From: Amycolatopsis sp. 195334CR
Lineage (GTDB): Bacteria; Actinomycetota; Actinomycetes; Mycobacteriales; Pseudonocardiaceae
Reading direction: 5' to 3'
Assembly: GCF_017309385.1 (NCBI RefSeq)
Contig: NZ_JAFJMJ010000001.1
Span: forward strand, 3,472,001 to 3,536,000
DNA length: 64,000 bases
A program made the position numbers and the translations under genes. Positions 43,897 through 54,579 of this stretch are shown here, one piece after another. How positions within the stretch are numbered: position 1 is the first letter of the stretch; each line of letters begins with the position of its first letter. The notes below the pieces were generated by a model. It was not told the origin of the DNA. It saw nothing but the letters and a program-made list of their open reading frames with translations, and did no database searches.

Positions 43897-45633
43897 ATGA
43901 CGACTTCAGCCTCCGCCTCCGTCGCGGAAATCCAGGACCAAGACACCACCGAAACGCTGGCCACCCTGCTGCACCACTGGGCGGCCAGGCACGGCGACGA
44001 GATCGCGGTGACCTTTTTGGACTACCGCACCAGCGAGGACGGCCGCGCCGCCTTCCTGACCTGGCACGAGCTGGACGACCGGGTCAGCGCGGTGGCCGCG
44101 CGAGCGCTGGAGCTGGCCGCCCCGGGTGACCGCGCGGCGGTGCTGGTCGAGCAGTCGGCCGACTACGTGGTCGCCTTTCTCGGCGCGATCCGCGCGGGGC
44201 TGGTGGCCGTGCCGCTGTTCGCGCCGAACCTGCCGGGGCACGCCGGGCGGCTGACCGCGGTGCTCGCCGACTGCGACCCGCGCCTCGCGCTCACCACCGC
44301 GCCGCAGCTCGATCAGGTCGCCGAGTTCGTCGATCCGAAGAGGACGGACCTGGTCGCGGTCGACCTGGTGCCCAGGGCCCGCGAACGCGACTGGCCGGTG
44401 CCGGACCCGGACGATCTCGCGTACCTCCAGTACACCTCGGGGTCCACGCGCAGTCCGGCCGGGGTGATGCTCAGCCACCGCAACGTGCTCGCGAACGCGC
44501 GTCAGGCGTGCGCGGCGTACGGCGCGGTCACCGGGCAGACCACCACGGTCAGCTGGCTGCCGCTGTTCCACGACATGGGCCTGGTGCTCGGCATCGCCGC
44601 GCCGATGGCCGTGGGCATGGCCGCCACCCTGCTGGACCCGGTGGCGTTCCTGGAGAACCCCGTCCGCTGGCTCCGCGCGCTTTCGGCGAGCCCCGGCGCG
44701 ATCAGCGCGGCGCCCAATTTCGCCTACGGCTACGCCGCTTCACGCGTTTCGGAGCGCGACAAGAGCTACCTCGAACTCAGCCGCGTGGTGTCGTTGATCA
44801 ACGGGAGCGAGCCCGTGCTCCCGTCGACGATCGCGCAGTTCCAGAACGCGTTCGGCGAGTGCGGGCTCGACCCGGCCGTGCACCGGGCCTCGTACGGACT
44901 CGCCGAGGCGACCGTGCTGGTCTCGGTCAGCGACGCCGGAGAACCACCGCGGCAGGTCGACTTCGACCGCGACCGGCTCGCCGCCGGCGCGGCGGTTCCG
45001 GCGGGGAAGCACAAATCGTCCACTTTGGTCTCCTGCGGGTACGCCGCCGGCCAGCAGTTGAGGATCGTCGACCCGGAGAAGCGCAAGGCCGTGCCCGGCG
45101 GCACGGTCGGCGAGATCTGGGTGCGCGGGGAGAACGTCGGCCGGGGTTACTGGCGCAATCCCCAAGCCTCCGCAGGCGTCTTCGGGCTCCCACTCGACGG
45201 GGTCGACGGCTGGCTGGCCACCGGCGACCTCGGGGTGCTCTTCGACGGCGAGCTCTACGTCACCGGCCGGAGCAAGGACCTGGTGATCGTCGACGGCCGC
45301 AACCACTACCCGCAGGACATCGAGCAGACCGTGGAAGCGCATCCGGCGGTGCGGCGGCATTCGGCCGCGGCGTTCGCCATACCGCTCGACGAGGGGGAGG
45401 CCGCCGTGGTGGTGCTGGAACGCGCGAAGAACCTGGCGCCGGACGAAGCTAACCTGGTGGCCGCGACCGAAGCGCTCCGCGCCGAGGTGGCCACCCGGCA
45501 CGGGTTGAAGCTGACCGACCTGGTGTTCCTCGCGCCCGGTGAGGTGCCACGAACGTCCAGCGGCAAGATCAGCCGGTCCTCCTGCCGGGCGCGGTACCTC
45601 GACGGTGCCTTCGCCGACCGGAGGCTGTCGTGA
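43897..45633 (+). CDS. fatty-acyl-AMP ligase (FAAL), FadD32-like
   Basis: This 578-residue ANL enzyme activates a fatty acid as acyl-AMP and loads it onto a PKS carrier domain. The P-loop is YLQYTSGSTRSPAGVMLSH (176-194), then SWLPLFHDMGLVLGI, GLAEATVLVSVS and WLATGDLGVLFDGELYVTGR, all FAAL-type. The C-terminal lysine motif is VPRTSSGKISRSSCR. The FAAL rather than CoA-ligase class is indicated by FHDMGLV and the LVSCGYAAGQQLRIVDPE segment. ATG 43897 follows GAGGGA. Its stop overlaps the PKS start (GTGA), so the acyl donor and PKS are made together. Confidence 0.9.
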   Translation: MTTSASASVAEIQDQDTTETLATLLHHWAARHGDEIAVTFLDYRTSEDGRAAFLTWHELDDRVSAVAARALELAAPGDRAAVLVEQSADYVVAFLGAIRAGLVAVPLFAPNLPGHAGRLTAVLADCDPRLALTTAPQLDQVAEFVDPKRTDLVAVDLVPRARERDWPVPDPDDLAYLQYTSGSTRSPAGVMLSHRNVLANARQACAAYGAVTGQTTTVSWLPLFHDMGLVLGIAAPMAVGMAATLLDPVAFLENPVRWLRALSASPGAISAAPNFAYGYAASRVSERDKSYLELSRVVSLINGSEPVLPSTIAQFQNAFGECGLDPAVHRASYGLAEATVLVSVSDAGEPPRQVDFDRDRLAAGAAVPAGKHKSSTLVSCGYAAGQQLRIVDPEKRKAVPGGTVGEIWVRGENVGRGYWRNPQASAGVFGLPLDGVDGWLATGDLGVLFDGELYVTGRSKDLVIVDGRNHYPQDIEQTVEAHPAVRRHSAAAFAIPLDEGEAAVVVLERAKNLAPDEANLVAATEALRAEVATRHGLKLTDLVFLAPGEVPRTSSGKISRSSCRARYLDGAFADRRLS

Positions 45634-53604: not shown

Positions 53605-54579
53605 ATGAAAAGACGCTGGCTGCTGGCACTACCCCTGCTGGTGGCACTGGTCATCCCGGTGCCGGCGGCCACCGCGGTCCCGCCGGTGACCGCGGACAAC
53701 GGCGCGAAGATCGTCAAGGAGACCCACGTCGACGCGCGCACGGTGGACATCGAGATCAGCTCGCCCTCGCTGGCCGGCACCGGGATGGTCCGCCTGCTGC
53801 TGCCGTCGAAGTGGGCGGCCGAGCCGAACCGCACCTGGCCGACGCTGTACCTCCTGCACGGCTGCTGCGAACCGGCGGACTACCGCTCCTGGGACCAGTT
53901 CACCGACGTCGAGCAGTTCACCGCGGACAAGGACACCATCGTGGTGATGCCCACCGACGGCAAGGCGGGCATGTACACCAAGTGGTGGAACCTCGGGCTG
54001 AAGTCCACTCCGGACTGGGAGACCTTCCACACGCTGGAGGTGCGCCAGCTGGTCGAGCGCGGGTACCGCGGCGGCACCCAGCGCGCGGTCGCCGGGGTGT
54101 CCATCGGCGGTTACGGCGCGATGGCGTACGCCTTCCGGCACAAGGGGATGTTCGGCGCCGCCGCCTCCTACAGCGGGATGCCGAACACGCTGTTCCCCGG
54201 CACGCCGGCGGTGATCAAGGGAATCCTGGTCCGCGAGGGCTTCTACAACTGGTTCGACCTCTGGGGCCACGAGATCACCAACATCTTCACCTGGTCCGAC
54301 CGCAACCCCTTCGACCACGTCGACGACCTGCGCGGGACCGCGCTGTACATCTCGTGCGGCAACGGCCGCACCGGACCGCTCGATCCGCCGGGGCAGAGCG
54401 ACGTGCTGGAACCGGCGGCCGAGCTGACGTCGCGCAGCTTCACCGATCGGCTCAAGTCGCGGGGGATCCCCGCCACGGTCGACTACTACGGCGACGGCAC
54501 GCACAGCTGGCCGTACTGGGAACGCGCGCTGCACAACTCCTGGCCGGTGCTGGCACCCGCACTCGGGCTGCCCGCCTGA
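53605..54579 (+). CDS. secreted antigen-85-like esterase/acyltransferase
   Basis: This 324-residue exported alpha/beta-hydrolase of the esterase-D/Ag85 family starts at ATG 53605 after GGAGG. The signal peptide is about residues 1-24. Ser166 lies in AGVSIGGYGAM and His300 in GDGTHSWPYWERAL, closely like the THSWEYW end of mycobacterial Ag85 proteins. Ag85 enzymes transfer mycoloyl groups to trehalose outside the cell. Placement directly behind PKS and AccD suggests transfer of the cassette's acyl product to an outer acceptor. Simple ester hydrolysis is the alternative. Confidence 0.85.
   Translation: MKRRWLLALPLLVALVIPVPAATAVPPVTADNGAKIVKETHVDARTVDIEISSPSLAGTGMVRLLLPSKWAAEPNRTWPTLYLLHGCCEPADYRSWDQFTDVEQFTADKDTIVVMPTDGKAGMYTKWWNLGLKSTPDWETFHTLEVRQLVERGYRGGTQRAVAGVSIGGYGAMAYAFRHKGMFGAAASYSGMPNTLFPGTPAVIKGILVREGFYNWFDLWGHEITNIFTWSDRNPFDHVDDLRGTALYISCGNGRTGPLDPPGQSDVLEPAAELTSRSFTDRLKSRGIPATVDYYGDGTHSWPYWERALHNSWPVLAPALGLPA

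Follow-up and report, generated by a model that had tools for sequence, protein, structure and literature searches.

Gene content of the cassette and anatomy of its synthase

The stretch of DNA analyzed here (termed "the window") comprises 64,000 nucleotides of the genome of Amycolatopsis sp. 195334CR (contig NZ_JAFJMJ010000001.1, positions 3,472,001 to 3,536,000). It harbors four consecutive genes, all on the forward strand, that encode a fatty acyl-AMP ligase (FAAL), a Pks13-like polyketide synthase (PKS), the beta subunit of an acyl-CoA carboxyltransferase (AccD), and an esterase of the PS1/CMT/Ag85 group. Together, they make up a genuine version of the mycolate condensation cassette that recurs in many genomes; the synthase is not Pks13 by either the curated model or the domain order. 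The domains are abbreviated as follows: acyl carrier protein (ACP), ketosynthase (KS), acyltransferase (AT), dehydratase (DH), ketoreductase (KR), and thioesterase (TE). The features of the cassette are:

43897..45633, forward strand: FAAL; ATG start at 43897; candidate activator and loader of the first acyl chain.
45630..52049, forward strand: Pks13-like synthase of 2139 residues; ACP-KS-AT-DH-KR-ACP-psiACP-TE, from Pfam, the NF040607 score, residues, and trees.
50895..51155 (boundaries approximate), forward strand: psiACP, a dead carrier domain inside the PKS, between the second ACP (ACP2) and the TE.
52004..53590, forward strand: AccD, with an open acyl pocket; ATG start; Gly161/Ala423 placed by alignment.
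53605..54579, forward strand: esterase/acyltransferase of the PS1/CMT/Ag85 group; PF00756; signal peptide judged by eye.

The initial annotation had described a tightly coupled run with active-looking DH and KR domains in the synthase, and both points were borne out. The coordinates were confirmed, as were the GTGA overlap at the FAAL/PKS junction, the 46-nt overlap between PKS and AccD, and the GGAGG site that precedes the esterase start after a gap of 14 nt. Pfam placed a carboxyltransferase in AccD, PF00756 in the esterase, and ACP, KS, AT, DH (two models), KR, ACP, and TE in the PKS; no enoyl-reductase family was among the Pfam matches listed for the latter. The C-terminal part of the PKS (residues 1600-2139) is 92-94% identical to those of A. 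sp. YIM 10, A. magusensis, and A. albispora. Residues were surveyed in 115 sequences, i.e. the window's and those of 120 listed homologues that exceeded 1900 residues. The checked catalytic residues of both ACPs, KS, AT, KR, and TE were invariant (115/115), and the DH His and Asp were kept in 114 and 110 sequences, respectively. Judged by these residues, DH and KR are apparently active in the window. The KR is presumably B-type, going by its motifs. The N-terminal ACP has the motif GLSSRD, as do 31 of 37 Pks13 rows.

A further carrier-like domain lies between ACP2 and TE. At the position of the serine, the window has Ala, and Ser is found in 5 of the 115 sequences. Pks13 is likewise described in PMC9210659 as having, ahead of its TE, a cryptic psiACP that lacks the serine (6C4V). 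The window's domain matched that structure weakly (E 0.014), with several to many carrier domains of nonribosomal peptide synthetases scoring better, and a profile comparison with the Pks13 linker (hhalign) gave E 3.4e-4 at a probability of only 38%. Homology of the two dead carrier domains is thus likely, not proven. The ten Streptomyces members treated below have no psiACP, and their ACP-TE linker has a median length of 16 residues.

Kinship with Pks13 and recurrence of the cassette

According to PMC9210659, mycobacterial Pks13 joins a FadD32-activated chain to the alpha-chain, and the alpha-alkyl beta-ketoacyl product is passed by its TE to polyols, trehalose being preferred; mycolic acids are described there as Corynebacteriales-specific. 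The hydroxyl group of the mycolate is made afterwards by a separate reductase, as stated in PMC2568869. The PKS of the window scored 1343.4 bits against the model NF040607 (mycolic_Pks13), below its curated cut-off of 2100, and is not Pks13 by that measure. The layout of Pks13, ACP-KS-AT-ACP-TE without reductive domains, is that of the Streptomyces and type II loci described below, not that of the window PKS, which has DH and KR. Among the matches listed, none of the 297 genomes of the host's family had a Pks13 above the curated cut-off.

In a KS-AT tree (48 rows, 854 columns), the cassette synthases and Pks13 formed one clade (99/90). The next clade consisted of FAAL-linked PKSs of mycobacteria that bear an ACP at the N-terminus, which we take to be PpsA-like and others. 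As in the cassette, a FAAL lies beside an ACP-KS-AT-(DH)-KR-ACP enzyme in 6 of 8 of those loci; unlike the cassette, they have no TE, and the stretches examined gave no match to AccD or to an Ag85-like protein. A KS-only tree grouped cassettes and Pks13 at 90/94, below the starred level of support. The KSs of modular PKSs that were included fell outside at 100/98, and the reading of the window's KS as part of a modular PKS was rejected; the clustering of the KS with modular PKSs that had been named beforehand as counting against the proposal did not occur. In a TE tree, the branch uniting cassette and Pks13 TEs had a support of 95, with only three outside TEs included, and the Pks13 TEs scored 192-225 bits against a cassette TE profile, compared to 115 bits for the highest-scoring of the genome's remaining TEs. 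The relationship to Pks13 that had been put forward was therefore upheld by both the KS-AT and TE trees.

Constrained topologies were also compared. Holding Pks13 outside the cassettes and the FAAL-linked mycobacterial PKSs was rejected (approximately unbiased (AU) p 0.024). Holding the cassettes together without Pks13 was rejected as well (p 0.039) and occurred in 0% of 200 bootstrap trees (44-row set), which suggests that Pks13 arose among synthases bearing DH and KR. Weighing against such nesting, 24% of the KS-only bootstrap trees kept the cassettes together, the exact sister of Pks13 was unsupported (32/0), and the Pks13 rows stand on a long stem and are odd in composition. The placement of Pks13 inside the cassette synthases is accordingly regarded as suggestive. 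That Pks13, type II, and Streptomyces share one loss of DH-KR was not rejected (AU p 0.136), with the best tree needing three changes, and the KR tree did not separate ancestral from acquired DH-KR.

Loci were gathered from a scan with the C-terminus of the PKS (22 loci) and from hand-picked matches to the Pks13 model, mainly those covering the N-terminal ACP-KS. After removal of four duplicates and of stretches in which the ACP-KS-AT-TE synthase was incomplete, 51 distinct loci outside genome group f8 remained, and 12 query proteins were used to scan their flanks. At a distance of up to 9 kb from the PKS, a FAAL was found in 51/51 loci (within 1 kb in 48), the esterase in 45, and AccD in 33. 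Three kinds of locus were distinguished. Type I loci (34), whose synthases have DH and KR, are found in Pseudonocardiaceae (f1) and in families f2 and f13 of the same order, with FAAL in 34/34, esterase in 28/34, and AccD in 23/34. Type II loci, without DH and KR, occur as a second locus in seven Amycolatopsis-group genomes (L132, L135, L137, L138, L141, L143, L144); all seven have FAAL and a divergent esterase, six have a gene of the major facilitator superfamily (MFS), and none has AccD. The Streptomyces loci (n=10), also without DH and KR, have FAAL, AccD, esterase, and a PucR-type regulator in all ten cases. Their order (L019-L029) is fixed as AccD-FAAL-synthase-esterase-PucR-type regulator, and a cutinase-family gene is present in 9/10; such a gene is also found in the mycobacterial mycolate locus.

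The conservation that had been named as a check was found: the gene order is not unique to one genome, and cassettes of this kind occur in Pseudonocardiaceae, two further families, and Streptomyces. In the 297 genomes of the host's family, 91 Pks13-like PKS loci were picked from the matches listed, and at least 68 of them had a listed Ag85-like esterase within 15 kb; about 0.6 of 91 would be expected by chance for 8-Mb genomes. An esterase match of at least 66% identity was present in at least 19 of 26 same-genus genomes, again among the matches listed. In eight listed genomes of group g4 (which includes Actinopolyspora), the esterase was present but located away from the PKS. The host genome had only one listed match to the Pks13 model at E 1e-170. 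Phylum-wide, 21 of 296 genomes matched the model at E 1e-120: eight of f8, eight of f18, and five others, including the host. Many of the f18 frames greatly exceeded the cassette synthase in length; one, of 1357 residues (G728), equaled the Streptomyces form in size. When the ACP-TE part of the Streptomyces synthase was used as a protein query, 1509 matches at E 1e-3 were obtained among 7987 scored, and those of the best 120 that carried an organism name were all Streptomyces.

Two further features of the type I loci were noted. Three genomes (G014, G162, G204) have two type I cassettes each (L145/L146, L091/L092, L094/L095), with AccD in one of each pair, which suggests a shared carboxyltransferase. 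A gene for an MMPL-family transporter lies near 5 of the 34 type I cassettes (L009 (14-1888), L108, L139, L149, L150) and recalls MmpL3, the export step of mycolates.

Predicted acyl supply, loading, and the outer step

Every carboxyltransferase known to use acyl-CoAs of at most four carbons has Phe161, whereas MccB, which carboxylates medium-length chains, has Gly161; the place of Asp421 in PccB is taken by Ala in MccB (PMC5187497). An alignment with 5inf and PccB placed Gly161 and Ala423 (MccB numbering) in the window AccD. The top PDB match of the latter was 5inf (778 bits), which we take to be MccB. The alignment contained 69 rows, most of the mutually similar Mycobacterium AccD4 rows having been dropped beforehand. 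A small residue at 161 together with Ala423 was found in 23/23 type I rows (18 Gly, 4 Ala, and 1 Ser at 161), 10/10 Streptomyces rows (8 Val, 2 Ala), and 12/12 of the AccD4 rows kept. Among the 24 other paralogues, 22 had Phe161 and none had Ala423. A PccB-like carboxyltransferase gene located elsewhere in the window (1622-3265, reverse strand) served as a same-genome control; it has Phe and Asp at the pocket positions, a pocket of the short-chain type. The cassette AccD has the pocket of MccB from stambomycin biosynthesis (PMC5187497), but MccB feeds a modular macrolide PKS, and the cassette AccD sits with a single-module condensing enzyme. The branch separating cassette AccDs and AccD4 from PccB-like rows had an SH-aLRT of only 88.

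The AT of the window has the motif AGHS, and the Ala, Gly, and His columns of xAGH were kept in 114, 114, and 115 of the 115 surveyed sequences. The xAGH motif is reported for ethylmalonyl ATs in PMC7496768. In a wider set that was not deduplicated, it was found in 29/39 type I, 10/10 Streptomyces, and 7/7 type II ATs. From the AccD pocket and the AT motif, an alkyl branch, of whatever length, is the likely result.

For the FAAL, FAAL families led the NCBIfam matches, none of those listed reaching its cut-off; the FadD32 model NF038339 gave 513 bits (cut-off 975). The best PDB matches were FadD32-type chains (444 bits) and FadD23. An AMP-binding, acyl-CoA synthetase-like gene also lies in the window (31771-33477, reverse strand) and is 28% identical to the FAAL.

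The esterase most resembled Protein PS1 in the PDB (168 bits), followed by Cmt1 (83) and Ag85 (75), with the first match outside this group at 56. PS1 and CMT are mycoloyltransferases of corynebacteria. Chains of PS1, CMT, or Ag85 made up the top 19 of 27 PDB matches, and a generic PF00756 esterase was rejected as the first choice; only two PF00756 matches were found in the host genome at E 1e-10. Like PS1/CMT/Ag85, the cassette esterases that were examined (28 type I, 7 type II, and 12 Streptomyces rows) keep the Ser, acid, and His of the Ser-Glu-His triad and the Trp pair of HSW-YW, with Asp for Glu in two type I rows. Ag85 and the cassette esterases fell on separate sides of a tree that had no outside group and thus cannot root one against the other. 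The protein is probably secreted, as the signal peptide was recognized by eye. Acyl transfer to some extracellular acceptor, of which trehalose and arabinan are no more than candidates, is plausible from these sequence features. Emb-type arabinosyltransferases were matched in 8 of 15 cassette genomes, including two matches in the host; no match was found in the other 7 or in two further genomes, which we take to be Streptomyces. Since 7/15 cassette genomes had no Emb match, arabinan was rejected as the general acceptor.

The three partners of the synthase had been likened to FadD32, AccD4, and Ag85. For the FAAL, the lead of FAAL families agrees with this, and a closer kinship with FadD32 itself is no more than possible; for AccD, the open AccD4/MccB-type pocket stands, and membership of the AccD4 clade is likewise no more than possible; for the esterase, the scores, triad, and Trp pair hold, and the usual Asp/Arg pair is missing.

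A proposed route, its alternatives, and the wider operon

The cassette has in common with FadD32-Pks13-AccD4 and Ag85 of Mycobacteriaceae a FAAL, a synthase with an N-terminal ACP and with KS, AT, ACP, and TE, a likely matching dead ACP, an open-pocket carboxyltransferase, an Ag85-family protein, gene clustering, and the kinship of KS-AT and TE. It differs in having DH and KR between AT and ACP2, in not passing the Pks13 model, in an AccD not placed firmly within the AccD4 group, in the changed Asp/Arg of the esterase, and in the MFS, R2lox, LIP, and PucR-type genes nearby. On balance, we consider it probable that the cassette carries out a mycolic-type condensation yielding an alpha-branched acyl chain that is finished on the enzyme and passed to an extracellular acceptor. 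The FAAL would adenylate a fatty acid and load it onto the N-terminal ACP. A second, medium- or long-chain acyl-CoA would be carboxylated to an alkylmalonyl-CoA by AccD and a shared biotin carboxylase, and the AT would transfer this unit to the C-terminal ACP. The KS could then condense both chains to an alpha-alkyl-beta-ketoacyl chain, which the KR would reduce and the DH might dehydrate, so that the alpha-alkyl chain would carry either a beta-hydroxyl group or an alpha,beta double bond. With KR and DH in the same enzyme, a separate reductase of the Rv2509 type should not be needed. The TE would release the chain onto an acceptor or water; following export, the Ag85-like protein might pass the acyl group to an extracellular acceptor, not necessarily trehalose or arabinan. 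Taken together, the dead ACP, the AccD pocket, the AT motif, and the kinship with Pks13 lead us to predict, as the product of a mycolic-type condensation, an acid with an alpha-alkyl branch and a reduced beta position (hydroxy or enoyl).

Several observations weigh against this route. AccD lies within 9 kb of only 33/51 PKSs and of 0/7 in type II. The AT departs from xAGH in 10 of 39 type I cases (7 xAAH, 2 xASH, 1 xSGH), the Pks13 ATs themselves have xASH in 29/37 rows and xAGH in 8/37, and the xAGH motif is known from ethylmalonyl ATs rather than from long-chain ones. The Gly of the DH motif is Asp in 26/115 sequences, and the DH may therefore be impaired in some relatives; the motif is intact in the window. 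An unrooted FAAL tree set FadD32 apart from the cassette FAALs, which shared their side with other FAALs of mycobacteria. The window esterase has His/Cys where Ag85/CMT rows have Asp (32/39) and Arg (28/39), a pair that we take to be the trehalose-binding site of Ag85. Among the models listed, no NCBIfam cut-off was passed by PKS, FAAL, AccD, or esterase, and the missing Emb matches count on the same side. The all-in-one, alpha-branched route of the initial annotation is accordingly supported in part, through the Pks13 kinship, the AccD pocket, the relatives of the esterase, and the recurrence, and was loosened in its links to the AccD4 clade, to FadD32, and to the Asp/Arg pair of Ag85.

The operon is wider than four genes, with three genes upstream and a secretory lipase downstream that ends at 55841. 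A 140-nt gap 5' of the FAAL could leave room for a second promoter. The neighboring features are:

38299..39615, reverse strand: PucR-type regulator (HTH_30).
39699..41492, forward strand: CocE/S15-family hydrolase; start codon uncertain; 4-nt overlap with R2lox.
41489..42415, forward strand: R2lox (R2-like ligand-binding oxidase); NF006199 at 532 bits, above the cut-off of 286.
42431..43756, forward strand: MFS transporter (Pfam), candidate exporter.
54606..55841, forward strand: secretory lipase (LIP family); PF03583 at 202 bits; 26-nt gap after the esterase; probable last gene of the operon.

Counting the window, an MFS gene neighbors 22/34 type I loci, a PucR-type regulator 12/34, a LIP lipase 7/34, and R2lox 4/34. 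These neighbors bear on the strongest of the alternatives, that the product is a diffusible lipid metabolite (a signal, surfactant, or antibiotic) hydrolyzed by the TE, exported by the MFS protein, and hydrolyzed or modified outside by the Ag85-like protein and LIP. The frequency of the MFS gene, the regulator and R2lox of some loci, the esterase without its Asp/Arg pair, and the genomes without Emb matches (7/15 and the two presumed Streptomyces) are all compatible with it. With just 12 query proteins used on the flanks, tailoring genes could still be present. On the other hand, the esterase has retained both the triad and the Trp pair of Ag85 and is linked over many genera, and its conservation within the genus exceeds the expectation for a scattered cluster. 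We regard this alternative as unlikely, though deserving of some weight.

A synthase of methyl-branched lipids, in which a PccB-like AccD would supply methylmalonyl-CoA and the PKS would add one methyl-branched unit in the manner of MAS, is more doubtful. Its case lies in whole-sequence scores and labels: PccB outscored chain D4a of 9t97 (taken by us as AccD4) as a PDB match of AccD (about 760 vs. 530 bits), MAS slightly outscored Pks13 as a match of the PKS (924 vs. 905), and several records label the homologues phthiocerol synthase D. However, AccD is without the Phe and Asp of propionyl-type enzymes, both of which the PccB-like gene of the same window has; the AT motif is AGHS and not of the YASH type; and the KS-AT tree groups the PKS with Pks13, leaving outside the row L126, presumably MAS-like. 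MAS, moreover, is not known to have a loading ACP or a TE. Least credible is the idea that DH and KR idle on the branched intermediate and that the product is a Pks13-type alpha-alkyl beta-keto chain or a ketone derived from it: all 17 sister loci (type II and Streptomyces) are without both domains, so on-enzyme reduction is not essential to the family, but the retention of KR residues in 115/115 and of the DH His/Asp in 114/110 of 115 is unexpected for idle domains.

To our knowledge, Amycolatopsis and Streptomyces lack mycolic acids (by chemotaxonomy), and the origin of the mycolate condensing machine is an open question. No description of such a cassette outside mycolate makers was found among the open-access papers listed, judged by titles and the openings of abstracts. 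We tentatively entertain, as possible rather than probable, an origin of mycolic condensation as one branch of an older actinobacterial FAAL-Pks13-like-AccD-Ag85-like system that makes secreted alpha-branched lipids in Pseudonocardiaceae, other mycolate-free lineages, and Streptomyces. Its ancestor would have been self-reducing, and Pks13 would have arisen inside it by loss of DH and KR, with reduction passing to a separate enzyme. Were this so, mycolate-free actinomycetes would hold unrecognized mycolate-like lipids. The cassette offers a concrete ancestor-like system for mycolate condensation, with a predicted alkylmalonyl supply and built-in reduction, and opens to testing a class of branched lipids, either secreted or of the envelope, in widespread soil genera. 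Condensation and Ag85-type transfer could be studied in harmless laboratory hosts among actinomycetes not known for mycolates.

Among the neighbors, the CocE/S15 hydrolase and R2lox occur as a pair beside 4/34 type I loci (the window, L094, L145, and L149), in three genus groups. R2lox binds fatty acid, and its role is unsettled; it gains here a lipid-biosynthetic neighborhood that is a possible clue to that role, though beside only those four loci. Elsewhere in the window, a GT87-family glycosyltransferase (26915-28084, forward strand) adjoins a PurK-like gene.

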